Positions 26,022-49,325 of a stretch of DNA of 64,000 bases are shown here, in pieces (the first letter of the stretch is position 1; each line of letters starts with the position of its first letter). A program made the position numbers and the translations under genes. Origin of the DNA: Phycisphaerales bacterium (GTDB lineage: Bacteria > Planctomycetota > Phycisphaerae > Phycisphaerales > UBA1924); NCBI GenBank assembly GCA_022843045.1, contig JALHOJ010000005.1, forward strand, positions 1 through 64,000. The letters run 5' to 3'. The notes under the pieces were generated by a model. That model worked only from the letters and a program-made list of their open reading frames with translations. It was not told where the DNA came from and searched no databases.

Positions 26022-26056
26022 GCGCGGCTTGATTCGAGTTGGCAAGGCACGGCATC

Positions 26057-27346
26057 ATGAACATCGCACGAGTTATCCTGGCTTGGGGCGCAATGCTGAT
26101 CTGCGGCGCTGGCCATGCGCTTGCACAGGAGACGAGCCAGCCGCCGCTCCAACCTTCACTTTCATCATCGATTCAGCTCCGCGCCAGCGCGGCGACCGAG
26201 ACGCTCGACGCGATCACGCTGGGCGATGTTGCGGCTATCGAGGGCGCAGGGGCAGAGTCGCTTGCGAAGATCGCGATTCCAGAAGTGGCCTGGTTTGCCG
26301 GCGCGAATGGAGGACGCACGCTCGACATCGCTGCGGTGCGAAGACTGCTGAGCGAGACGAAGGGCGTGAACCTCGGTCGCATCGCGCTGTCGGGGCAACG
26401 GGTGGAGTGGCGACAGAAGGTCGCGCAGCCGCCGCCTGCGCCGCCAACACCATCCTTGCAAGGCATAGACGCTGGCGGAGTTCGCGTGCGAGACTTGCTG
26501 CATGACCGCGTGGCGACGGCGCTGGGGGTTGCGCCGACGGACCTTCGCGTCTCGCTGGACGAGGGCGATGCTGAGATTCTGAACACGTCGGTCGAGGGGC
26601 GCACCGTGACGATCACGCCGATGGGCGAGTCGGATCGCCCGCCGCTCGCCGTGCGGGTGTATGAAGGAGATCGGCTGATCGCCGCGCGTTCCACGCGCGT
26701 CGGCGTGCTGCTGAGGCGGCAGGTTGTGCTCGCGGCCCGCGACATTCGGCGCGGCGAACTGCTTGATCCCTCGCTGCTGCTGACGGAAGAACGCTGGCTC
26801 GCGCCCAGTATCGACGCGGCGACGTTCGAAGACGCGGCGGGCAAGTCGGCTCGGGGCGCAATCGAAGCGGGCGCCATCATCACCAATCGCGACGCCGAAG
26901 AGCCGATCGTCGTGCGCAAGGGCGAGCGCATCGTGGTGGACTGCATGGTGAACGGCGTGCTTGTCCGCAACACAATGCGGGCGGGCGGCCAGGCAAGAAT
27001 TGGCGACGTGATCGTCGTCGAATCGCTGACGAGCGATCGCGGCGAACGCCGCGGCGAAGCGACGCAGAAGCCCAGCACAGTCTTCGCACGCGTCAGCGCA
27101 GCCGGACAAGCCGTGGTGACAACTTCGCAACCAACCACTCGACCTGCAAGTCAAGAAACACTGCTCGAACGCGTGAATCGTCCTCGGCCATTGAACCAGA
27201 ACGACTCAGGAACACCGTCGTCCGCCCGCGCGACAACCGCACGCGCAATGCCCCCCCAGCCCGCACCCTTCACCGTGCGTCGTGGCGGGATTGAAGTGAC
27301 CCGCGCGGGCGCAACGCCCGTGGAGTCTCGAAAGGAAGCACCATGA
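26057..27346 (+). CDS. flgA: Flagellar P-ring assembly chaperone FlgA
   Basis: 429 residues from ATG 26057, with a signal peptide to about HALAQ. The C-terminal half holds the SAF-type FlgA domain: VGVLLRRQVVLAARDIRRGELLDPSLLLTEERWL then GAIITNRDAEEPIVVRKGERIVVDCMVNGVLV. It is a periplasmic chaperone for the FlgI P-ring protein. It is longer than usual (about 220-240 for enteric forms): an N-terminal beta-rich region and a 100-residue Thr/Pro-rich tail are additions. Its last codons contain a GGGCG-CAA-CGCCC hairpin related to that at 7518. The stop overlaps the flgH start (ATGA). Confidence 0.88.
   Translation: MNIARVILAWGAMLICGAGHALAQETSQPPLQPSLSSSIQLRASAATETLDAITLGDVAAIEGAGAESLAKIAIPEVAWFAGANGGRTLDIAAVRRLLSETKGVNLGRIALSGQRVEWRQKVAQPPPAPPTPSLQGIDAGGVRVRDLLHDRVATALGVAPTDLRVSLDEGDAEILNTSVEGRTVTITPMGESDRPPLAVRVYEGDRLIAARSTRVGVLLRRQVVLAARDIRRGELLDPSLLLTEERWLAPSIDAATFEDAAGKSARGAIEAGAIITNRDAEEPIVVRKGERIVVDCMVNGVLVRNTMRAGGQARIGDVIVVESLTSDRGERRGEATQKPSTVFARVSAAGQAVVTTSQPTTRPASQETLLERVNRPRPLNQNDSGTPSSARATTARAMPPQPAPFTVRRGGIEVTRAGATPVESRKEAP
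27306..27330 (+). repeat. Short hairpin inside the 3' end of flgA
   Basis: CGGGCG (27306-27311) pairs with CGCCCG (27315-27320) around CAA, followed by TGGAGTCTC. The GCCCGTG-(G)AGTCTC part matches the intergenic hairpin at 7530-7541. It sits between the flgA body and the flgH start, and could tune translation of flgH. Confidence 0.45.
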
Positions 27347-35417: not shown

Positions 35418-35685
35418 GCCGGACCCATCGCGTGCGTATATTGATGGCAAGCGAGAGACGCCGGCGGCGTGTCGCGCGGCGAGCGCGGGCCGACCAGCCC
35501 GTTCTTTCCAGCGCGAGCAGGGGACCGGCAATACGAAGTACAATCCGCTCCAGGCACACGCTTGGAACCCCGGCGCAGGGGGCATTAGTCCCGTCGCCAC
35601 ATGGATTTGCGATGGGTGCTGGGGGGATGGGCGAGGCTGGTTGGATTCGAACGAGATCACGCGGGGCGTGAACAAGAGGATGCGC

Positions 35686-36729
35686 ATGCGGCACGTGGCT
35701 GGGTGGCGGCGAAACTCGAAGTTGGTGGCGGCGGTGGGCCTTGCGTTGGGCGTGGCGTGCGGCGCGATGCCGGACGTCGTCAGCGCGGCTCAAACCGCAA
35801 CGGCGGCAACACCAACGTCGAGCCTGACGCCAGGACTGGATGAGCGGCAGTGGGAGACGCTGCTGGGCGCTTTTGGCGGAAGCAAAGGGGTGTCGCGCCC
35901 AAGCCAGGACGCGGTCATGGGCTTTTCCTTGCCCAGCAGCGTGCAGGCGACGACCGTCAAGGAGATCGTGAAGCGGGGCGGGATGGAAGTGAAGGCTGGC
36001 GAGACGATCGTCAAGGGTGATGACGCAGAGGATCGCATCCTGCTGAAGTTGCAGGAAGAGCGCGTCGCCAAGCCGCTCGCGGTGGATCGGGCGAAGGCTG
36101 CGATGGAACTGTCGGAAGTTGAATACAACCGCGTGCGGGATGCGTTTGAGCGGGGCGGCTCGGGCACGCAGGAAGTGGATCGGGCGCGGCTGCAGGCTCA
36201 GGTTTCTCGCATCGACTGGGAACTGGCGGTCAGCAACGACTTGCAGGAGAAGATCCAGCTCGAGCGCCTGCAAGAGCGGGTGGTGCGGTACAACATCGTC
36301 GCGCCGTTTGATGGCACGGTGGACCTGGTGAACGCGGACATCGGGCTGGTGGTGGGGGGGAATGAAAAGGTCGTGCGTGTGGTTGATGTCGATCCGTTGT
36401 GGGTCGATGTGCCCGTGCCGACCGCCGATCGCGCGACGTGGGAGCTCTCGGTGGGGGCGAAGGCGTGGGCACTGGCGAGCGTCGCGGGAGTGCCGCGGAT
36501 CGTCGAGGGGAAGGTGATCGAAGTCGCACCGACGGCAGACCCCGCAAGCCGCACGCGTCGCATTCGCGTGGAAGTGCCCAATCCGCCCTCCACGAGCGCG
36601 GCGGTTCCGCGTCTGCTCGCGGGTGAGGCGTTGTGGGTTCGCTTTACGCAGCCCGACGCGGCCCAATTGCCCGGCCTTGCGTCCGCGGATGCATCGAAGA
36701 AGGTTGCCGCGACGGAGGGCGCGAAGTGA
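35686..36729 (+). CDS. HlyD/RND-type periplasmic adaptor protein
   Basis: About 347 residues from ATG 35686 (35680 is possible). A long N-terminal signal or anchor ends near GAMPDVVSA. The rest is a membrane-fusion protein: the first lipoyl half with VKEIVKRGGMEVKAGETIV, a coiled-coil hairpin (LLKLQEERVAKPLAVDRAKAA...LQEKIQLERLQERVV), the second half RYNIVAPFDGTVDLVNADIGLVV and a beta-barrel segment. It would bridge inner- and outer-membrane parts of a transporter. It overlaps the next gene by 4 nt (GTGA), first of a four-gene export cluster. No ABC or RND pump is adjacent. Confidence 0.87.
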   Translation: MRHVAGWRRNSKLVAAVGLALGVACGAMPDVVSAAQTATAATPTSSLTPGLDERQWETLLGAFGGSKGVSRPSQDAVMGFSLPSSVQATTVKEIVKRGGMEVKAGETIVKGDDAEDRILLKLQEERVAKPLAVDRAKAAMELSEVEYNRVRDAFERGGSGTQEVDRARLQAQVSRIDWELAVSNDLQEKIQLERLQERVVRYNIVAPFDGTVDLVNADIGLVVGGNEKVVRVVDVDPLWVDVPVPTADRATWELSVGAKAWALASVAGVPRIVEGKVIEVAPTADPASRTRRIRVEVPNPPSTSAAVPRLLAGEALWVRFTQPDAAQLPGLASADASKKVAATEGAK

Positions 36730-38831
36730 TCGACGTCACCAACATCAAGAGTCCCGGGTGGCACCGCGTCGTTGCGGAGTTGTCTCAGCCGCTCCCGGAT
36801 GATCGAGTCTTCCTGCTGCGTCTGCTCTCGACGCTGGGCCTGGTCAGCAACGCCCGTCAGGGCGTGTTGTTCAGCGTGAGCGGTTCGCAGGAGCAGTCGT
36901 CGGTGGAAGTGAAGGCGGCGCAGGTCTGGCCGTTTGCCGCGGATGTGATCGATCCGACGGGCAAGCCGCTGCGCCCGCTTGAAGATCTGGTCGATCCGTC
37001 CAAGCTGGACGCGACCACGATCGAGCGCACCAAGGACGTGCATGGCGCGGCGCGCACGGTCGCGGTATCGCGGCAACTCCAGGTCTTCTCGCTCGATGAG
37101 GAGCAGATGTACACGGGCACGCAGTCACGCGGTTTTGTGATCGCGGCTCCGATCCCCAACGGGCTCTCGCACGAAACCTCGACGCGGCCGATCCAGCATG
37201 TGATCACACTGGTGGGCGAAACCACTTCGCGCCAGGCGCTGCAAAGCACGCTGGCGATGGTCGAGTTGCTGATCGGCTATGTGTTCACGCACGAGGCCCA
37301 GCAGGCGCTGCGCCGGACGCGACAGGGGACCGCCGCGCTTGATCTCGCGGGGCGCTTGATCGCATCCATCAACGCCACGGCGGGCTCGCAGCAGGGTTTC
37401 AGGGCCGCGGGGTTCCAACTCGTGAACGATCTGTGCCGCCAGTTGTCGCTGGATCGCGCCGGCCTGGGCTGGGTGCCTGGTTCTCCGGCCCGCTGGCCCG
37501 GGCGCGGGCGCAGCGAGGAGCAACAGGCCGTGGGCTCGCGCCGCGAGGCCTACAGCGTGCACCTCAAGGCCATCAGCGACACTGAGCACATCGATCGCCG
37601 CCTGGAAATGTGCCGGAAGATCGAAGCGGCGATGGAAGAGTGCCTGGATCAGGAACAGCCGGTGCTGTTCCCGGCTCCGCCCGCGACCGGGCAAGGCGCG
37701 GATCCCGCCCTGGCCCAGAGTGTGACACATGCGCATCGCGACCTCGCGCGGAACGATGCGCACCTGAAGGTCGCGAGCATTCCGCTCCGCGTGGTGGATG
37801 CGCGGGGCGAACGGATCGCCGGTGTGCTTCTGGTGGAAGCTGGCCAGAACGCCAAGCTCGACCCGGCGCTGGTGGAGTTGATTCAGGCGACGATGGACTT
37901 GGTCTCGCCCGTGCTCGCTGTGCGTGCCAGCGACGACCGCAACCTCGCCCTGCGGGCGTGGGACAGCTCCCTGCGAGCCGCGGCGTGGGTCGTGGGCCCC
38001 AAGCACACCGTCTGGAAGGTTGCGGGCATCGCCGCGATGATTGCGACGGCGGTGCTCTTCTTCGGCACGACCACGTATCGCGTGGGCGCGCCGATGAGCC
38101 TCAAGGCCCAGCAGCATCGGTTGCTCGCTTCGCCCGTGGCGGGCGTGCTCGAGAGCATCCCCGAAGAGATCAAGTCGGGCACGCGGGTGCAGAAGGGCCA
38201 AGTCCTCGCGCAGCTGGACGCCAAGGAGTTCCAACTGCAGGAGCTTGAGGCGCGGGCCCAGTTCGCTCAGTATGACAAGCAGGCCGATGACGCTTTGCGC
38301 AAGGGGGACAACGCCTCGGCGTCTCAGTCTCGTGCCCGCGCGGATCAAGCCCGCGCCCGCATGGAGCTCGCCGCGTTGAATGTGGATCGCGCGACGATTC
38401 GGTCGCCCATTGACGGCACGATCGTGAGCCCGGACATCCGCGAGCGCGTGGGATCGATGCTGAAGGCGGGCGATCCGATGATGGAAGTCGCGGACCTTGG
38501 CACGATGAAGATCGTCGCCAAAGTGGATGATCGCGACATCGGATACATCCAAGTCGGCCAGACCGGCGAGATCAGCCCCAAGGCCGATCCGAGCAAGACG
38601 GTCGCGTTCGTGGTCGATCAGATCGTGCCCTTGAGCCAGGCTGAGCAGGGCGTGAACGCGTTTGAGGTGCGAGCCTCTTTCGTCGCGCCGGAGCAGTTGT
38701 CTGACCATGAGAAGCGCTGGCTGCTGCCGGGCCTTGAGGGCCAAGCCAAGTTCAACACTGAACGTCGTAGCTTCGCGTGGATCCTGTCACGCCGCATCGT
38801 GGATCAGATGCGGGTGTGGCTCTGGTGGTAG
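36726..38831 (+). CDS. GAF-domain/HlyD-like membrane fusion protein
   Basis: 701 residues from the GTG that overlaps the previous stop. The N-terminal 410 residues are cytosolic and GAF-like in their second part (FQLVNDLCRQLSLDRAGLGWVPG and LKVASIPLRVVDARGERIAGVLLVE). One transmembrane helix (about 430-452, VAGIAAMIATAVLFFGTTTY) follows. A periplasmic HlyD domain then has SPVAGVLESIPEEIKSGTRVQKGQVLAQLD, a short coiled coil, and ATIRSPIDGTIVSPDIRERVG. It couples a cytosolic sensor domain to a periplasmic adaptor, which suggests regulated export. This is an unusual fusion. It is translationally coupled to its neighbour. Confidence 0.85.
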   Translation: MIDVTNIKSPGWHRVVAELSQPLPDDRVFLLRLLSTLGLVSNARQGVLFSVSGSQEQSSVEVKAAQVWPFAADVIDPTGKPLRPLEDLVDPSKLDATTIERTKDVHGAARTVAVSRQLQVFSLDEEQMYTGTQSRGFVIAAPIPNGLSHETSTRPIQHVITLVGETTSRQALQSTLAMVELLIGYVFTHEAQQALRRTRQGTAALDLAGRLIASINATAGSQQGFRAAGFQLVNDLCRQLSLDRAGLGWVPGSPARWPGRGRSEEQQAVGSRREAYSVHLKAISDTEHIDRRLEMCRKIEAAMEECLDQEQPVLFPAPPATGQGADPALAQSVTHAHRDLARNDAHLKVASIPLRVVDARGERIAGVLLVEAGQNAKLDPALVELIQATMDLVSPVLAVRASDDRNLALRAWDSSLRAAAWVVGPKHTVWKVAGIAAMIATAVLFFGTTTYRVGAPMSLKAQQHRLLASPVAGVLESIPEEIKSGTRVQKGQVLAQLDAKEFQLQELEARAQFAQYDKQADDALRKGDNASASQSRARADQARARMELAALNVDRATIRSPIDGTIVSPDIRERVGSMLKAGDPMMEVADLGTMKIVAKVDDRDIGYIQVGQTGEISPKADPSKTVAFVVDQIVPLSQAEQGVNAFEVRASFVAPEQLSDHEKRWLLPGLEGQAKFNTERRSFAWILSRRIVDQMRVWLWW

Positions 38832-38951
38832 GAAGCAGGGACGGAGTGACGAAGCGACGCAGAGACGAAGTGCGTCAGAGTCGAATCTCCCGAAGTTCAT
38901 GATTCCAACCCGCTTCGTCTCTCTGTCTGTTCGTTTCTTCGTCTCTTCCCC
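38831..38951. repeat. Inverted repeat, GACGAAG-type arms, before the M50 gene
   Basis: Left arm 38831-38874 (units such as GACGAAGCGACGCAGAGACG) is imperfectly complementary to 38911-38951 (units such as TTCGTCTC). It starts at the stop codon of the GAF/HlyD gene and ends at the base before the next ATG, so the ribosome site of the downstream gene lies within it. Inside a tandem gene pair it may modulate, rather than end, transcription. Confidence 0.65.
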
Positions 38952-41129
38952 ATGTCCGAACGCCACACATTCTCGCCCTTCTGGCATCGCGTGCGGGCCC
39001 TCAAGCCGCGATTGCGGCCGCACGTGCAGATCACCCGGCAGCGATTCCAGGGCGGACGCTGGCACGTGGCGCACGATCCGTCGTCTAACGCGTTTTATCG
39101 TCTCTCGCCCGTGCAGCATGAGTTTGTCGGCCTGCTCGACGGCTCTCGCACCGTGGACGAAGTCTGGCAGCTCAACCTGGCGCGATATGGCGACGATGCG
39201 CTCACGCAGAACGATGTCATTCAGGTCTTGAGCCAGCTGTACGGCGGCAACCTGCTGCAGGCCGACGTCACGCCCGAGACTGACCAACTGCTCACCCGCG
39301 GGCGTGAACGCTTCAAGAAGAAGGCGCTGGGCCAGGCCATCGGCCTGATGTACTTCCGTGTGCCCTTGTTCAATCCGGATCGGATGCTCGCCGCGACCGA
39401 GCCGATCCTCCGCCCCGTGCTCAACCGCTACGGGCTAATCATGTGGCTCGTCTTGGTGTTCGCCGCGCTCACGGCGCTGATCCCGCATTGGAAGGCTCTG
39501 ACGGGCACCTTCGAGGCCGCGATCGCTCCCAGCAACTGGATCTTCATCGGGATCTCGTTCGTCGTGCTCAAGCTTTGGCACGAGTTCGGGCACGGCGTAC
39601 TCACCAAGCGATTTGGCGGGCAAGTCCCCGTCTTTGGCGCGATGATGCTGGTGATGCTGCCCTCGCCGTTCGTCGACTGCACCAGCGCGTGGAGCTTCCG
39701 CAGCAAGTGGCAGCGCGTGCTGGTCGCCTCGGGCGGGATGATGTTCGAACTCTTCGCGGCGGCGATCGCGGCGTTTGTGTGGATCGCCACCCGAGACAAC
39801 CCGGGCGTGGTACACCAGCTCGCGTACAACGCGATGCTCACGGCGAGCGTGAGCACTGTGATCTTCAATGCCAATCCGCTCATGCGGTTTGACGGGTACT
39901 TCATACTGAGCGACATCATCGGCGTGCCCAACTTGATGCAGCGTTCGATGAACATGCTCAAGTTCCTGTTCCAGAAGCACGTCTATCGCATCGACCAGCC
40001 GCAGCCGCCCACGGGCGATGCGCGCGAGGCGTTGATCCTGCTGGTGTACGGGATTCTGGCTCTCGCCTATCGCGTCTTCATCTTCATCACGATCACGCTG
40101 TATGTGCTGGGCAAGTTCTTTGGGCTTGGGCTGGTTCTGGCGGTGTGGACCGGCGCGATGTGGTTTATTCTGCCCATCGGCCAACTCGTCCACTGGCTCG
40201 CGACGCACGGCCAACTCACGCACAAGCGCGGCAAAGCCGTCTTTGCAACTCTGGCGATGGCGGCGATCGGCCTGCTGGTGCTGGGCGCGGTGCGGTTCCC
40301 TGATCATCGCCGGGCGACGGGCGTGGTCGAAAGCCAGAAGTCGGCCCAGTTGTACGCGGGCGTGCCAGGATTCATCGATCAGGTACACGTCCGCCCGGGC
40401 CAGCGGGTCCGGGCCGGACAGCCGGTGGTCACGCTCCAGAACCTGGAACTGCAAGCTCAGCTCAAGTTGTCGCAGGGCCAGCTTGACGAAGCCATCGCCC
40501 GCGAGCTGCAAGCGGCGTCGCGCTCGCCCGCGGAGGAGATCATCGCCCGCGAGTTCGTCACGACCATGCGCAAGTCGCGGGACGTTGCCCAGGAGAAGGT
40601 TGACAAGCTGGTCGTGAAGGCACCCTTCGACGGCGTGGTGGTGCTGGGCAGCGCGCTCGACCGCGTGGGCGCGTTGGTGCCAGACAGCACGCCCCTGTGC
40701 GAAGTGATCGACGATCGCGACCTCCGCGTCTCGGCGTCGCTGTCGCAGACCGAGGCGGACTGGCTCGCGTCGATGTCTCCCGAGCGGTACAAGGTCGAGA
40801 TGCGCCGTGCGTCACGCGTCCACGACGTGATCGAAGGTGCGCCGACTCGCATCCCGGTCATCGCGCGCAAGGACGTTCCGCACGATGCGCTGCTGTTCCA
40901 GGGCGGCGGGACCATCGCCAGCCAGCAGGGAGCGGACGGCCGACCGGAGCCGACCAATCGCGTCTTCAACGCGCACTTTGTCGCAAAGGCTGACGAGGGC
41001 GAAGCGGTTCGCGTGGTGGGCCTGCCGGGCGAGCGCGTGATGCTGCGATTCACACTGCCCAGCCGGCCGCTGCTGTCGCAGTGGTTGGATCGGCTGGAGA
41101 AGGCGCTGCAGGGACGAGCGAAGGTGTAA
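38952..41129 (+). CDS. PqqD-like/site-2 protease (M50)/HlyD fusion protein
   Basis: The 725-residue protein has three parts. Residues about 25-105 resemble the PqqD/RiPP recognition fold (VQITRQRFQGGRWHVAHDP, FYRLSPVQHEFVGLLDGSRT). A multi-pass M50 metalloprotease follows, with zinc ligands H210 and H214 in HEFGH and D314 in NPLMRFDGYF; further helices run to about residue 440. The last 280 residues are a HlyD-like adaptor (GVPGFIDQVHVRPGQRVRAGQPV, APFDGVVVL). All three active-site elements are intact. It may recognise, cleave and pass on a leader-bearing peptide or protein. The substrate is not in the window. Confidence 0.88.
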   Translation: MSERHTFSPFWHRVRALKPRLRPHVQITRQRFQGGRWHVAHDPSSNAFYRLSPVQHEFVGLLDGSRTVDEVWQLNLARYGDDALTQNDVIQVLSQLYGGNLLQADVTPETDQLLTRGRERFKKKALGQAIGLMYFRVPLFNPDRMLAATEPILRPVLNRYGLIMWLVLVFAALTALIPHWKALTGTFEAAIAPSNWIFIGISFVVLKLWHEFGHGVLTKRFGGQVPVFGAMMLVMLPSPFVDCTSAWSFRSKWQRVLVASGGMMFELFAAAIAAFVWIATRDNPGVVHQLAYNAMLTASVSTVIFNANPLMRFDGYFILSDIIGVPNLMQRSMNMLKFLFQKHVYRIDQPQPPTGDAREALILLVYGILALAYRVFIFITITLYVLGKFFGLGLVLAVWTGAMWFILPIGQLVHWLATHGQLTHKRGKAVFATLAMAAIGLLVLGAVRFPDHRRATGVVESQKSAQLYAGVPGFIDQVHVRPGQRVRAGQPVVTLQNLELQAQLKLSQGQLDEAIARELQAASRSPAEEIIAREFVTTMRKSRDVAQEKVDKLVVKAPFDGVVVLGSALDRVGALVPDSTPLCEVIDDRDLRVSASLSQTEADWLASMSPERYKVEMRRASRVHDVIEGAPTRIPVIARKDVPHDALLFQGGGTIASQQGADGRPEPTNRVFNAHFVAKADEGEAVRVVGLPGERVMLRFTLPSRPLLSQWLDRLEKALQGRAKV

Positions 41130-41142
41130 ACGCAAGGAAGCT

Positions 41143-41192
41143 CGGTTTCAGCACAGAGACACAGAGATCAGGAGGAAGAGGAGAAGAGAGAA
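41143..41192. repeat. Solo arm of the TTTCAGCACAGAGAC repeat
   Basis: 41146-41184 agrees with the left arm at 33852-33890 at 38 of 39 positions. The right side of the gap instead has a TTTTCG-based pyrimidine repeat (41280-41307) just before the next ATG. It looks like a mixed or half element. Confidence 0.7.
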
Positions 41193-41309
41193 CGGCGGGC
41201 GGAGAGAAGCTTCAACGTTGGCCTCACAACGAACGCCTGGGCCCCACCTGCCCGCACGATCCTCCAAGTCCTATTTGATGCTTTTCGTTTTTCGCTTTTC
41301 GTTTTTCCC

Positions 41310-43352
41310 ATGTCCGCATACCCGATCACCAACTACGCCGCCCTCTACGAGTCCTTGCGGACGCGTCGGCTCAAGCCGATTGCGCCCAAGAACCTCGACA
41401 CGGTGGCGGTGCGGGCCCGCGTCACGCTGGATCGCGCGCGGCTGCGGTCCAAGGACCTGTTCGTGCGGGCCCACACGATCGCCGATCGCAACAAGCAGAC
41501 CAAGTCGATGTCCGACGCGGTGCTCAACCAGGCGGTGGATGACATCCGCGAGGTCTTCGTCCGGCGGCGGCAACAGCGCGAGCATGTGGATCAGGCTCTC
41601 GCCCTGATCCGCGAGGTCGCGCGGCGTGAAACCGGTGAAGAACCGTTCCCTGTGCAGCTCATGGGCGCGCTGGCGATGTACCACGGGCGCGTGATTGAGA
41701 TGTTGACGGGCGAGGGCAAGACGCTGACTGCGAGTATCGCCGCGCCGCTGATCGCGTGGCACCATCGCAAGGTTCACGTGCTCACGGTGAACGACTACCT
41801 CGCACAGCGCGACGCCCAAAGCCGCGAGTGCATCTACAAGCGCTGCGGCGTGCGCGTCGGCGCGATCGTGCAGGAGACGCAGACCGACGATCGGTTCCAG
41901 ATCTACGCCCGCGAGATCGTGTACGGCACGCCCAAGCAGATCGTCGCCGATTGGCTGCGGGATCAGATTCGCCTGGGCCAGGCAAAGACGCCCTGGGTCG
42001 CGAGGACAATGCAGCAGTCGCTCGAAGCCGCGGGCGGCGTGCGATTTGGCGAAGGCCGGGGCATCCTGCCCATGGTCCCGGGCCTGCACGCGTGCATCGT
42101 CGACGAAGCCGACGCGGTGCTCATCGACGAAGGCGTCGTGCCCCTCATCATCGCTCGGGCGCGGCGCGAGGACGACATGGCGAGCGTGTACGCCGAGGCG
42201 TGCGAACTCGCCAAGAAGCTCGACGAGGGCAACGACTACGAGATGGACCTGGTGCTGCGCAAGGCGACTCTCAAGTTCCGTGGACAGCAGCGGCTTCGCC
42301 AGTTGTTTGCCGAGCATCTTGCGAGGGGCGGCCAGCCGCTGTTCAAGGCCACCCAGCGGGCCGAGGAACTGATCCGACAGGCCCTGGTCGCCAAGCACTG
42401 CTACATCCGAGGTCAACAGTACGAAATCGTCGATGGCAAGGTCATGATCGTGGACGAGTACACAGGCCGCTTCCTTGCTGACCGCAATTGGGAGCATGGC
42501 CTGCACCAGTCCGTCGAGGCCAAGGAAGGGGTCGAAGTCACCGCGGACCGCGAAACCCTCGCGCGCCTGAGCTTCCAGCGGTACTTTCGCAGCTATCCGT
42601 TCCTCTGCGGCATGACCGGCACCGCCGCTGACGCGACGGGCGAGATCGAAAGCACCTACAGCCGCCCGGTGATGGTGATTCCCACCAATCGTCCCTGCGT
42701 CCGTCAGGAGCTGCCCACCCGCGTCTTCCGCACCGCGCGCGACAAGTGGGCCGCCATCGCCGACGACATCGCCACCCGCAACGCCAAGGGCCAACCCGTC
42801 ATCGTCGGCTCTCGCTCCATCACCAGCAGCGAGCACGTCGCCCGCATGCTCACGCAGCGCGGCATCCCGCACCAGGTCCTCAACGCCAACTTCGACAAGG
42901 ACGAGGCCAACCTGATTGCGCAGGCCGGGCATGGCGGCACCAGCACCCGCTCCGCGAGCGTCACCGTCGCGACCAACATGGCAGGACGAGGCACCGACAT
43001 CAAGATTGACGAAGCCGCGCGTGCTGCGGGGGGGCTGCATGTGATGCTCACCGAGATGCACGGCGCCAAGCGGATCGACCGTCAGTTCATCGGGCGGGCC
43101 GGGCGCCAGGGCGACCCGGGCAGTTGCCAGATGTTTGTAAGCCTCGAGGATGAACTGATTCGCAAGTTCGCGAAGTGGGCCGGACGCATCGCGCGGGAGC
43201 GTTCGAGCGGCCCCGAAGTCTCGGGTGCACCTGGGGTGTTGGCCCTGTTCCGCTGGGCCCAGTCGCGCAACGAGGCGCACGATCGGCGCAACCGCAGCAG
43301 CGTGCTGCGCCAGGACGACTGGATCGACAAACACTTGCCGGGCATGGGATAA
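41310..43352 (+). CDS. SecA-like motor ATPase lacking the C-terminal domains
   Basis: The 680-residue protein is clearly SecA-related. NBD1 has Walker A TGEGKT (133-138), HVLTVNDYLAQRDAQ and Walker B-like IVDEADAVLIDE; the preprotein-binding region is short. NBD2 has YEIVDGKVMIVDEYTGR, GMTGTAADATGEIESTY, VATNMAGRGTDIKI and the IDRQFIGRAGRQGDPGS arginine finger. It ends within the scaffold helix (RNEAHDRRNRSSVLRQDD), so the helical wing, two-helix finger and C-terminal zinc linker of canonical SecA (about 840-900 residues) are missing. It is probably a paralogue devoted to the upstream export cluster. There is no obvious ribosome site; a T/C-rich tract precedes the ATG. Confidence 0.93.
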   Translation: MSAYPITNYAALYESLRTRRLKPIAPKNLDTVAVRARVTLDRARLRSKDLFVRAHTIADRNKQTKSMSDAVLNQAVDDIREVFVRRRQQREHVDQALALIREVARRETGEEPFPVQLMGALAMYHGRVIEMLTGEGKTLTASIAAPLIAWHHRKVHVLTVNDYLAQRDAQSRECIYKRCGVRVGAIVQETQTDDRFQIYAREIVYGTPKQIVADWLRDQIRLGQAKTPWVARTMQQSLEAAGGVRFGEGRGILPMVPGLHACIVDEADAVLIDEGVVPLIIARARREDDMASVYAEACELAKKLDEGNDYEMDLVLRKATLKFRGQQRLRQLFAEHLARGGQPLFKATQRAEELIRQALVAKHCYIRGQQYEIVDGKVMIVDEYTGRFLADRNWEHGLHQSVEAKEGVEVTADRETLARLSFQRYFRSYPFLCGMTGTAADATGEIESTYSRPVMVIPTNRPCVRQELPTRVFRTARDKWAAIADDIATRNAKGQPVIVGSRSITSSEHVARMLTQRGIPHQVLNANFDKDEANLIAQAGHGGTSTRSASVTVATNMAGRGTDIKIDEAARAAGGLHVMLTEMHGAKRIDRQFIGRAGRQGDPGSCQMFVSLEDELIRKFAKWAGRIARERSSGPEVSGAPGVLALFRWAQSRNEAHDRRNRSSVLRQDDWIDKHLPGMG

Positions 43353-43567
43353 CGGTTCATTGCAGCGAAGGATCGCGTGCACTTCGCGCCTCCAGCCCGA
43401 ACACCTTAACACAACTTTCACTTTCTGTTCGCCCAAACGCTGTGTAAAGCGGTTAAGATGCCGCCAAGATTGTGTTCAGAAGCCTCGTTTTACCGAGTTT
43501 CATGGACACGCTGGTGCTGGCTCTCGTTCTCCGCCGCGCGTTGCGGCTTGCGCACAGGACGCTTCTC

Positions 43568-44749
43568 ATGCAGCAACACTCCCTCGTCGGTCTGGTCGCC
43601 CTCATCACCCTCGCCGGCACCGCGCTGGCCCAGCAGCCCGAGCCCGCTCCCGCGGTCGCGGCTCCTGAAGCTTCGCTTGCCCTGGGCAGCGCGGGCAAGG
43701 ACGCCAAAGGCTTTTACCTGAAGGGCGGCGACTCGAGCCTGTACATCGGCGGCTTCATCCAGACCCGCTTCAGCCTCAACAGCCGCAACGACGTGGCGGA
43801 TCAGGACGAACTCACGACCGGCTTCTCGACCCGCCGGGCCCGGTTGGGCGCTCAGGGCGATCTCAACAAGCAACTGAGTTTCAAGGTTGAGGGTGACTTC
43901 ATTCCGGATGGCTTCAAGTTGCTGGATAGCTTCGGGCGCTGGACGTTCAGCGATACAACCCGCATGCGCTTCGGCCAGTTCAAGACCCCGCTGATGAAGG
44001 AAGACCTCATCAGTGACACGCAGCAACTCCTCGTCGAGCGCTCCGTGGGGACTTCGACGTTCCTGCAGGATCGCTCGCAGGGCATCGATCTGCAGTACGC
44101 CGACGGCAACCTCCGCCTCACCGGCGCGTTCACCGACGGCCTCAAGACCCTCAACACCAACTTCGACAGCTCGTCTGAAGCTGACTTTGGCCTGACGGGC
44201 CGGGCCGAGTGGAAGTGGGCGGGCGAGTGGAAGAACTTCGACGGATTCACCAGCTTCCAGGGCGGCAAGTACGCCGGGTATCTGGGCGGTGCGGTGCACT
44301 ACCAGGACGGCGGCGAAACTGGCGGCACCGCCGACCAGTCGGTGCTGCAGTACACCTTGGACAGCATGGCCAAGGGCGACGGCTGGAACCTGTTTGGCGC
44401 ATTCGTGGGTCGGCGGACTGAGCCGACGACGGGCGAATTTGATGACTTTGGCTTCCTGGTGCAGGGCGGATACATGGTCGCGGCCCAGTGGGAGCTCGCG
44501 GCCCGCTACAGCCTGACGATGCCCGACGACACCCGCGTGGATGGCGATGACTTCAGCGAAGTGACGCTGGGCGTGAACCACTTCATCCTGCCCGAGAGCC
44601 ACGCCGTGAAGCTGTCGATGGACGTGACCTACTGCATCGACGATCAGGCCGGCAGCAACAGCATCGTTCGCCCGAGCGCCGCCAACGCGTTCCTCGCGGC
44701 GCCCGACGATCAGATTTACGCCCGCATCCAGTTCCAGATCGTGTATTGA
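43568..44749 (+). CDS. OprO/OprP-like outer-membrane porin
   Basis: 393 residues from ATG 43568, chosen for ACAGGA upstream and for the signal peptide (SLVGLVALITLAGTALAQ). The mature part is a beta-barrel of the phosphate-selective porin O/P type: LYIGGFIQTRFSLNSRND, FSTRRARLGAQGDL, FKVEGDF, RFGQFKTPLMKEDLISD, RSQGIDLQYADG, and a terminal aromatic strand ending FQIVY. It has many alternating strands and few cysteines. It forms a trimeric channel in family relatives; anion selectivity cannot be asserted. It is 215 bp behind the SecA-like gene and could be separately transcribed. A strong terminator follows. Confidence 0.9.
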   Translation: MQQHSLVGLVALITLAGTALAQQPEPAPAVAAPEASLALGSAGKDAKGFYLKGGDSSLYIGGFIQTRFSLNSRNDVADQDELTTGFSTRRARLGAQGDLNKQLSFKVEGDFIPDGFKLLDSFGRWTFSDTTRMRFGQFKTPLMKEDLISDTQQLLVERSVGTSTFLQDRSQGIDLQYADGNLRLTGAFTDGLKTLNTNFDSSSEADFGLTGRAEWKWAGEWKNFDGFTSFQGGKYAGYLGGAVHYQDGGETGGTADQSVLQYTLDSMAKGDGWNLFGAFVGRRTEPTTGEFDDFGFLVQGGYMVAAQWELAARYSLTMPDDTRVDGDDFSEVTLGVNHFILPESHAVKLSMDVTYCIDDQAGSNSIVRPSAANAFLAAPDDQIYARIQFQIVY

Positions 44750-45410: not shown

Positions 45411-46823
45411 ATGGAACGAGGAGGATTGATCGGCTGGGGATGTGTCGCCCGCGTGTGCGTCATGGGTTGTGCGCTGGCGTCGTTCGCGCACGATGGTTTC
45501 GCGCAGTCCCGCGCTGCCATGGGGCTCGCGCGGCATCTGAACACGCACGCGGAAGCCGCCTCCGCCGGGCCGGTCCAGCCCGCGGCCACTCCCGCGGAGT
45601 GGATCGATCGCATGACTGCGGCGTATCGCTCCGGACCGATCGTCGAGCACATCGAGTTCGAAGGTGTCATCCCCGCGGGGCAGCGTGCCGACGCGTGGCT
45701 GCGCGTGGACGCCGGAAGCGACGATGACGCCTCGCCTCGCGTGGCCCGCCTGCGGCTGGACGCGAGCCGCGCGATCATCTGGGCCCAGGGCGATCGCGTG
45801 GTGTTTGCCCACGCCGACAACCCCGTCGCATTCGCGGAGAGGGTTGTTGCGGGCGGTTTCGGTGGCGGCCTGATTCGCGAAGTGCCCCAGTCGCCCTTGC
45901 CTCAACTTGGCCTTGCGCTGACCGACACATCCGGCGCGCCGCGCTGGGACCCCCGCCGCGTGCGTTGGAACAGCGCGAGCACGCAGAACGACTTTGTCAC
46001 GCTGGAGGGCATGCTCGATCAGCAGCGCGTGGCGCTCAACCTCGACGCGGCAACCGCGCGACTGGTGTCGTTTGAACTGACAGTCGCACAGGACCAGACG
46101 CTCAAGGCGACTGTGACGCGGCTTGCCGCGGAGGATCCTCAGACGTGGCCTATTGCGCTGACGGGCCGTACCAAGGTCGCCAGCCCCGCCGAGCTCCGCG
46201 CCCTGCCCCGTCCCATTGAGCCCGGGCAAGCCGCGCCGCCGCTGGGGCTCATGACTCGCGACTTGTCGGGCTGGAGTCTGGTCGAGAATCTCGCGCAGGC
46301 GGCGAAGGCTGGTCGTGGCCAGTCTGGAGCGATCGGCGCGCTGGTGCTGGTCGGCGGGTCGAGCGATCCCGCCCAGGTCGGCCTTTCCCTGCGCGCGGCC
46401 CGCGGCGCGGCGCGGCTCGCACGCGAGCTAGACGCCCAGCTCGCGCAGGGTCTGCCCCAGACGCCCAAGCTGCTGGTGCGCATGGTGGGCGTGCTCGAGC
46501 TTGCCGAGGTGTCGCGCGAACGCATCGCCGCTCTCGAGGCCCAGTGGCGAGCCGCCAACCCCATCAAGGGAGAAGCGGGCAAAGACGCCATGCCCGAATT
46601 GCTCTGGACCAGCGGCGGGATCGAAACCCTGCGGCAACTCGCGCCCGCGCAGTCCGTCGCGCTGGTGCTTATCGACGATCGCCAGGTGCTGCGAGGCGTG
46701 TTGACGCTGGAAGGCAGGCTGCTCGATGAGGCTGCGATTGCGGAGGAGTTGCGAACGATGCTTCGCGAGCCGGTGGCGACGCCTGGAGAAAAGCCGGCGC
46801 TGAACAAGGCGGGTGAGAAGTAG
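45411..46823 (+). CDS. Exported protein of unknown function
   Basis: The 470-residue protein has a signal peptide (about residues 10-32). The middle resembles LolA/DUF2092-like outer-membrane lipid-associated domains (EHIEFEGVIPAGQRADAWLRVD, LDQQRVALNLDAATARLVSFEL). From about 255, GQAAPPLGLMTRDLSGWSL and SGAIGALVLVGGSSDPAQ read like the start of a thioredoxin-like fold without the CxxC pair. The identification is low confidence. It follows folK by 8 bp and converges on rsmE. A hairpin at 46863 could end both. Confidence 0.65.
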   Translation: MERGGLIGWGCVARVCVMGCALASFAHDGFAQSRAAMGLARHLNTHAEAASAGPVQPAATPAEWIDRMTAAYRSGPIVEHIEFEGVIPAGQRADAWLRVDAGSDDDASPRVARLRLDASRAIIWAQGDRVVFAHADNPVAFAERVVAGGFGGGLIREVPQSPLPQLGLALTDTSGAPRWDPRRVRWNSASTQNDFVTLEGMLDQQRVALNLDAATARLVSFELTVAQDQTLKATVTRLAAEDPQTWPIALTGRTKVASPAELRALPRPIEPGQAAPPLGLMTRDLSGWSLVENLAQAAKAGRGQSGAIGALVLVGGSSDPAQVGLSLRAARGAARLARELDAQLAQGLPQTPKLLVRMVGVLELAEVSRERIAALEAQWRAANPIKGEAGKDAMPELLWTSGGIETLRQLAPAQSVALVLIDDRQVLRGVLTLEGRLLDEAAIAEELRTMLREPVATPGEKPALNKAGEK

Positions 46824-47652: not shown

Positions 47653-47753
47653 CGGTTCGGTGTCCGTTGCAGCAGGCCCCGCCTGCGTCCGATGAACGCG
47701 GCGTGAGCGCGGACGCTCGCGCTCGCTTCGCCGCGCTCATTGTATCGACCCAC

Positions 47754-49325
47754 ATGGCTGCCCAGACTTCCGACACGCCGACCAAGCCCGACAAGAGTGC
47801 GCCCGCCGGCGCGCCGGGTGGTGCCGCGCCGAGCACCGATCCGGTGGACGCGGCGGCCTCGCTGGATCAGCAGGTCAGCAATCTGCTCGCGGAAATCGAG
47901 TCCACGCAGCAGAAGGTCGAGCAGGCGATGCAGGACCCGCCCGTTGAGGCGCAGGTCGACCTTGCGGCGCTCGAGGCCGCGGTGCTGCAGGCCAGCGCGC
48001 CCGCCGAGCCCGACCTTGAACTCACGGACGATCTCGTCACGTCATCGGAAGAGCCTGGATCTTCTGCTGAGGCGGGGCTCGAGGACATCGTGAGCGATCT
48101 GGTCGCCGACTCGCCCGTGCGAGCGACAGAGCAGGAGTCGACGACGCAGGATGAACCGACGACAGAACCTGCGGACGAAGCTCCGCCCGCGCTCGATGAC
48201 GAGCATGCCGCCAGCGACCTGATCGGCGAGGCCGAGGGTCAACTGGCCGACGAGGGGGCCGACGAAGAGGCCGATGAAGAGGCCGACGACGCTGTCGACG
48301 AACTCGCAGATGTCGAGAGCGGGCCTCAGGACGAAGTGGAGACCCATCTTGAGGCGGACGAGAACTACGTCGAAGAGTCTGCGGGAGCGGTCGACGAAAA
48401 TGGTGATGAGCAATTCCTGGACGAAGCCGCGCAGCAAGAGGCCGAGGTAGAAGAAGCTCTCGCCAACGACCTCAATGATCTCCTCGACGATCTCCCGCCC
48501 AATCCCGCCGGCGACGCGTCCGTCGCGGGCGAGCAGGCCGCGGAGTTCTTCCAAGCCGAGCCCGCGACACAGGCCGACGCGGCGCACGCCCAGCAACCTG
48601 CCCCGGCTGCGTCGCAACGTCCTCCCGCCGTCGCTGTGCCGCCCGCCGGGGCCGACGGTGCGTTGGCCGATCTCGATCGCGCAATCGCTCAGACGGCGAC
48701 GGAACTGATCAAGGCAGAAGCGCCGGTCGTCCCGGTGGTTGCGGCCACGGCTGCGCCAACGCCAGCGCCCGCCGCACCAGCACCCGCGCCTGCGTCCGCC
48801 GCCGCTCCCCTTGTCACGCCCGCCCCGGCGAAGGCCAAGGCCGCCGGCTCCTGGCTTTGGTCGCGTCTTGAGCCCAAACTCCACGACAGCGTTGCGCTGC
48901 TCAACAAGCCGCTGGAGAAGAGGCCGGCCGCGACGCGTCACGCGCTTGGCTTGGTGGGCGTCTACACGCTCATCACCGCCGCGGCGTGCTGGGGCTGGGC
49001 GATGTTCCTCCGCCCCGACACCGCCGCGAGCGCTGCCATTGAGCCCTTCGACTTCCAGAAGTCCGGCCTGCCCGCGCCCGAGCACCAGGAAGCACACGAC
49101 GATCACGCCGGGGCGTCTCATGAACCAAAGGACGCTGGCGGGCACGGCGGCAGCAGTGGGGGCGGCGGACACGGCGAGGCCAGCAAGGATGGCAAGAAAA
49201 AGCCGCTGCTCGACGCAGGCGACGGCAAGTCCGTGATCAACAAGACCATGGACGAACGAGCCAAGAAGGCCAGGGAATCCGCGAAGGCCGGCAAGGGCGA
49301 AGCGAAGAAGAGCGGCGGGCACTGA
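47754..49325 (+). CDS. Acidic, disordered single-pass membrane protein
   Basis: 523 residues from ATG 47754. The first 320 residues are extremely acidic and low-complexity (for example DEEADEEADDAVDEL). A Pro/Ala-rich stretch (about 325-362) precedes a basic juxtamembrane part and one transmembrane helix (about 402-422, VGVYTLITAAACWGWAMFL). The C-terminal 100 residues are His/Gly/Lys-rich (HDDHAGASHEP, GGHGGSSGGGGHG), a possible metal-binding tail, probably outside. I recognise no family, and no function is proposed. Confidence 0.7.
   Translation: MAAQTSDTPTKPDKSAPAGAPGGAAPSTDPVDAAASLDQQVSNLLAEIESTQQKVEQAMQDPPVEAQVDLAALEAAVLQASAPAEPDLELTDDLVTSSEEPGSSAEAGLEDIVSDLVADSPVRATEQESTTQDEPTTEPADEAPPALDDEHAASDLIGEAEGQLADEGADEEADEEADDAVDELADVESGPQDEVETHLEADENYVEESAGAVDENGDEQFLDEAAQQEAEVEEALANDLNDLLDDLPPNPAGDASVAGEQAAEFFQAEPATQADAAHAQQPAPAASQRPPAVAVPPAGADGALADLDRAIAQTATELIKAEAPVVPVVAATAAPTPAPAAPAPAPASAAAPLVTPAPAKAKAAGSWLWSRLEPKLHDSVALLNKPLEKRPAATRHALGLVGVYTLITAAACWGWAMFLRPDTAASAAIEPFDFQKSGLPAPEHQEAHDDHAGASHEPKDAGGHGGSSGGGGHGEASKDGKKKPLLDAGDGKSVINKTMDERAKKARESAKAGKGEAKKSGGH

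Follow-up and report, generated by a model that had tools for sequence, protein, structure and literature searches.

Genes A–D of the window (the whole 64,000-nucleotide stretch analysed here, which is part of contig C5 in a planctomycete genome of 4.08 Mb) are a member of the conserved secondary SecA_DEAD/type-I-like locus, and the reading of the sequences that we favour, with some reserve, is that together they export large extracellular proteins bearing an N-terminal LEPR-XLL/Planc_extracel leader instead of a Sec signal. What is seen directly are the domains, the intact catalytic and ATPase motifs, the conserved gene order and the tendency of leader proteins to be encoded in genomes that have C. 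The locus itself is already known: in the passages drawn on here, Kamneva, Poudel and Ward (2015, PMC4452313) describe a secondary SecA_DEAD/type-I-related locus of Planctomycetes, Verrucomicrobia, Proteobacteria and others, in which SecA_DEAD proteins lacking the scaffold/wing domain are encoded, with high gene-neighbour scores, beside GAF/HlyD, M50/HlyD and HlyD genes and sometimes an OEP, so the combination, not known as such to the first-pass annotation, is a described system. Those passages suggest the M50 protein as a possible pore, leave the biological role and cargo open and contain no mention of a PqqD/RRE domain, whereas here leader-bearing giants are tied to the locus, a link that we propose, and a SecA-less Pseudomonas variant with an OEP is seen.

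Organisation of the locus in the window

The five open reading frames first annotated on one strand are all present at or near the positions then given. Gene A (35686..36729, forward strand), assigned from its open reading frame and Pfam HlyD_3/HlyD_D23, encodes a 347-residue HlyD-type periplasmic adaptor with a Sec-like hydrophobic stretch at the N-terminus and an alternative TTG start at 35641; A-like HlyD genes lie close to the module in many relatives. Its proposed coupling to gene B (36726..38831, forward strand, 701 aa) by a GTGA overlap is confirmed by the sequence, the GTG start of B sharing bases with the TGA of A. B is laid out as a cytosolic GAF-type region, one transmembrane helix at about residues 428–446 and an HlyD adaptor (Pfam HlyD_3/HlyD_D23). 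The GAF/HlyD identity previously given to B holds for HlyD, which is found in B itself, but GAF has no Pfam match in the window's own protein and is present by Pfam in 12 of 15 aligned homologues; in the predicted model of B, alpha/beta regions stand ahead of the membrane helix. Fold searches of B and C returned HlyD-type adaptors only as their top matches, leaving GAF and RRE undecided there, and for these domains Pfam decided.

Gene C (38952..41129, forward strand) encodes a 725-residue fusion of a PqqD-like RRE, an M50 site-2-protease-type membrane protease and HlyD, in agreement with its first annotation. Pfam detects PqqD at 26.5 bits (cut-off 23.4) and HlyD_3 at 50.3; M50, at 21.8, falls below its cut-off of 27.2, and its catalytic motifs are kept, the His and Glu residues of HExxH (here HEFGH, H210/E211/H214; 39579..39593, forward strand) and the Asp of the NxxPLxRFDG region being invariant in an alignment of 18 sequences. 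The PqqD-like domain (residues 38–101; 39063..39254, forward strand; Pfam PF05402, above cut-off) appears in the predicted model as three strands followed by three helices and was found in 14 of 18 C homologues, although the match, judged by sequence score, is modest, and weak in Pseudomonas. RRE domains are typical of RiPP enzymes, and the best NCBIfam match of C is a daptide intramembrane metalloprotease (NF041824, 164.8 bits), which would suit a RiPP-like peptide maturation or export unit whose PqqD/M50 parts handle small precursor peptides, the giant leader proteins being secondary. We consider this most improbable: the daptide match lies far under the equivalog cut-off of 300, the scanned neighbours include no RiPP modification enzyme, and what recurs beside the module is a family of large leader-bearing proteins. 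While its M50 protease is related in sequence to the Daptide/YydH-LiaK intramembrane RiPP metalloproteases, C differs from these in its C-terminal HlyD domain.

Gene D (41310..43352, forward strand, 680 aa), assigned by Pfam and alignment, encodes a short (secondary) SecA_DEAD ATPase whose SecA domains are three only: SecA_DEAD (285 bits), P-loop_SecA (175 bits) and SecA_PP_bind (79 bits). Since D aligns solely to residues 34–601 of the about 780–840 of Bacillus SecA, it was correctly described earlier as a SecA-like motor without C-terminal domains; D retains the domains for nucleotide binding and preprotein cross-linking and ends where the helical scaffold starts, and its ATPase motifs are intact. 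Like the Kamneva locus, the window combines a SecA_DEAD protein without the scaffold/wing domain with adjacent M50/HlyD, GAF/HlyD and HlyD genes and no ABC transporter, none being found among the neighbouring window genes scanned with Pfam. The module also resembles the SecA2 systems of Gram-positive bacteria in having a second, diverged SecA, putatively for selected cargo, but its SecA ends at the scaffold and sits with HlyD/M50 genes; no SecY2 was found among the neighbouring genes scanned, and SecA2 models score D at 373–462 bits against equivalog cut-offs of 725–1100. D is a distant relative of the full SecA of the same genome, the canonical protein encoded on contig C9 (G000:C9:50568-52148, in a 1396-codon frame), which has insertions, as D aligns to it in four separated pieces. 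Rearranged SecA has been reported in planctomycetes in the cited parts of PMC4452313.

Gene E (43472..44749, forward strand; Pfam Porin_O_P, 60 bits) encodes an outer-membrane porin that had been counted as part of the machine. It was rejected as a member of the unit because homologues lie near only 2 of about 120 loci (L117 and L124), and is a neighbour that probably stands outside it.

Conservation of gene order across phyla

D was searched in 294 planctomycete genomes, and 39 loci around short-SecA matches were read. Close relatives share the B-C-D order, as do several further families; family f30 has large genomes in which D is often alone and C elsewhere. When GTDB genomes were scanned with the C alignment, 80 named loci were obtained, belonging to Planctomycetota, Verrucomicrobiota, Nitrospirota, Desulfobacterota, Gammaproteobacteria, Betaproteobacteria, an alphaproteobacterium, Spirochaetales, Elusimicrobia, Omnitrophota and Fibrobacter. 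Among the cross-phylum loci testable by contig, the gene directly after C, on the same strand, is the short SecA in 59 of 64, and the one directly before C is GAF/HlyD in 59 of 62. Both co-occurrence of the core families, in planctomycetes and in other phyla, and conservation of their order, which the first-pass annotation had proposed as checks, are therefore positive, and the recurrence of gene order across phyla places the cluster far beyond chance. The gaps of 119–180 bp that separate B, C, D and E, and the failure of the porin, HPPK and the following gene to be conserved as neighbours, are what a chance cluster without joint function would allow, yet that explanation has next to no probability given the B-C-D order kept across phyla, the overlap of A and B and the gene-neighbour scores published for the same locus (PMC4452313, in the parts cited).

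Two variations on this arrangement were noted. In three genomes of the same family (G095, G002 and G034) the B-C-D module is present twice, the copies having diverged (L034/L035, L036/L037 and L038/L039), and in L143 (12176-14110) and L162 (12158-14098) the short-SecA slot is occupied by a strongly diverged SecA_DEAD protein in which P-loop_SecA and PP_bind were undetected.

A leader-bearing protein family as candidate cargo

The candidate cargo are the LEPR-XLL (NCBIfam NF012209)/Planc_extracel (Pfam PF07595) proteins, large surface proteins with an N-terminal ExLExRxLL(S/A), for which the portions of PMC8567305 used here name no exporter. The same portions trace the motif, as a presumed novel export signal, to Studholme et al. 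(2004), and report that in Tuwongella immobilis (2021) leader proteins were found in cell/surface fractions, partly in the SDS-soluble fraction only, with the motif on 8 of the 10 longest proteins. Our consensus, xExLE[PD]RxLL[SA][AG], is N-terminal and stands in place of a Sec signal. Across 69 aligned leaders, E, L, E, R, L and L are nearly invariant, followed by S/A and A/G; several of these positions are set by the regular expression that was used to gather the sequences. A hydrophobic core is missing from the leader: over 12 residues, the most hydrophobic stretch nearby has a median score of ~1.3, compared with 2.5 for the Sec signals of A and E.

In the 80 cross-phylum loci the regular expression matched 11 real proteins, against 0 reversed and 1.2 shuffled proteins, and one of the 11 (L159, FEIVDGRAAF) is unconvincing as a leader. 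PF07595 was rejected as a genome-wide marker, since only 5 of 294 genomes exceeded its cut-off and C-negative genomes yielded numerous weak matches; because of this noise we used NF012209, the LEPR-XLL model, which at 24 residues is insensitive and has a cut-off of 17 bits.

Association of leader proteins with C

A neighbouring substrate family, which the earlier annotation had suggested looking for, was found in the large leader-bearing proteins beside the module. Among planctomycete loci, the regular expression identified the leader in open reading frames beside the module in L043, L048, L050, L059, L061 and L072. NF012209 names the motif in four of eight proteins tested, over its cut-off in L048 (29.8) and L050 (18.2) and just under it in L043 (16.9) and L059 (16.1); Pfam Planc_extracel gave one weak match on the same eight. 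Giant open reading frames near L040 and L042 were considered as cargo and rejected, having no Pfam domain and no leader and being possibly spurious.

At genome level, with leader-positive defined as NF012209 over cut-off and C-positive as E<=1e-40, 37 of the 294 planctomycete genomes are leader-positive, 67 are C-positive and 34 are both (Fisher p=1.9e-22), so that C accompanies 34/37 leader-positive genomes compared with 33/257 others, with the caveat that genes of one genome can co-vary through shared lifestyle. Stratified by family, with family counts tallied by hand, the exact p is 4.7e-6 (24 observed, 16.6 expected). The remaining 33 C-positive genomes have no leader match over the strict cut-off, and three leader-positive genomes have no C match, of which G164 (an 88-codon frame) looks like chance. 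An example of the joint occurrence is G270, which is from the same family as the window and matches neither C nor NF012209. The window genome (G000) has three leader proteins, all on other contigs, and no leader gene adjoins its module: one with FG-GAP repeats at G000:C1:109846 (1034-codon frame, RLDRLEDRVLLDG), one with a PPC domain at G000:C2:51417 (2782-codon frame, SLDRLEDRVLLDG) and one with subtilase, P-domain and PPC at G000:C32:3825 (frame of at least 1346 codons, AIDNLERRELLAAD). Two score 15.2–15.7 by NF012209 (cut-off 17) and the remaining one 18.7 by PF07595 (cut-off 25.5), and because these scores are below the cut-offs the three were decided by inspection of their sequences.

For the 35 genomes behind cross-phylum loci, a leader protein exceeds the cut-off in 30. 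In 13 of the 35, module and leader gene are next to each other, with frames of up to 14,390 aa, as established by locus reading (L134, L137, L163, L173, L175, L177, L183, L187 and L189) or by coordinates (L153, L168, L192 and L193), a count that takes in L177 with a match slightly below the cut-off. As these genomes were chosen mainly for long flanks and non-planctomycete origin, the 13 of 35 is no random sample, and our own Poisson estimate of 0.6 expected is a rough guide. In the Desulforapulum bin of L138, a leader match (G298:C80:51858-51929) lies in a 17,246-codon open frame, far above usual protein size.

A Pseudomonas variant without the short SecA

In 119 genomes of Pseudomonas, the genus of G310 (the strain of L168), with C-positive set at E<=1e-20, 21 are leader-positive, 60 C-positive and 20 both (p=3.7e-6), and in 18 of the 21 leader-positive genomes no more than 30 kb separates the leader from C. 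Typical loci (L232–L237) place two HlyD genes and an M50/HlyD gene beside a leader giant, which in G330 contains DUF4347, cadherin-like and Big_9 domains, and a TolC-like OEP gene was identified in four of them (L233, L234, L235 and L237). Their M50 proteins keep HExxH, with a weak PqqD-like match in 4/6. The short SecA is absent from L232–L237, where the only SecA is canonical; it follows that M50/HlyD and HlyD form the shared core, and that the short SecA, an addition found in most other lineages, is not universal in such loci. This weakens the short SecA as a universal motor, since it is not essential everywhere, while the retention of M50/HlyD points to C as the leader-recognising protein.

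The canonical SecA of these Pseudomonas loci also bears on a different route, in which SecYEG, together with either the canonical or the short SecA, would take leader proteins across the inner membrane, and the module would act only later, with M50 as the peptidase for the leader and the HlyD parts as the conduit to the outer membrane. The SecA2 of actinobacteria and firmicutes operates with SecYEG, and the short SecA retains the preprotein cross-linking domain that such a route would employ. Discussion of SecA2 with SecYEG is also found in the parts of PMC4452313 cited here. Nevertheless, the leader is without a hydrophobic core, the short SecA is without the C-terminal regions, and without the greater part of the scaffold, that are used on SecYEG, and no SecY was found among the neighbouring window genes scanned, and we regard passage through SecYEG as rather unlikely.

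Putative export pathway

For export by the A–D module itself we put forward the following mechanism, a reading that uses every conserved part. The cytosolic N-terminus of C, with its PqqD-like domain, would bind the leader, and the short SecA would feed the unfolded chain, with ATP hydrolysis, into the membrane hub; the M50 domain of C would then remove the leader near its RxLL[SA] end, and A, B and C would span the periplasm with their HlyD parts and connect to a TolC-like outer-membrane protein whose gene lies elsewhere in the genome, with the GAF part of B possibly serving in gating or regulation. We infer all of these steps, from leader recognition to outer-membrane exit and including the choice of inner-membrane pore protein; the motor role of the short SecA is the least secure. 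The first-pass suggestion of an ABC-less export unit for leader-bearing proteins fits the conserved order and the leader association, but not in its inclusion of the porin.

The module shares with the Type I secretion system (HlyB-HlyD-TolC) its HlyD adaptors (A, B and C), a presumed TolC-like exit and giant, repeat-rich candidate cargo, and several TolC-family (OEP) genes are present on other contigs of the window genome. It differs in having no ABC transporter and in its N-terminal leader, membrane protease and SecA-like ATPase. We suggest, tentatively, that such loci could constitute a distinct secretion class over many phyla, in which an RRE-protease fusion reads a non-hydrophobic leader and a truncated SecA with three HlyD parts, and no ABC pump, carries proteins of up to ~14,000 residues across both membranes. 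Two orphan observations, the cargo-less locus (2015) and the planctomycete leader that had no exporter named for it (2004, with surface proteomics in 2021), may then be one system, which, if true, would explain how planctomycetes and some other bacteria place their largest surface proteins outside and would provide a rule for predicting cargo from sequence.

Other features of the window

Downstream of the porin, two genes (45411-46823 and 47739-49325) have no convincing Pfam family. A 95 nt tRNA-Gly call at 26614-26708, which may be spurious, lies inside a long open reading frame (26039-27346).
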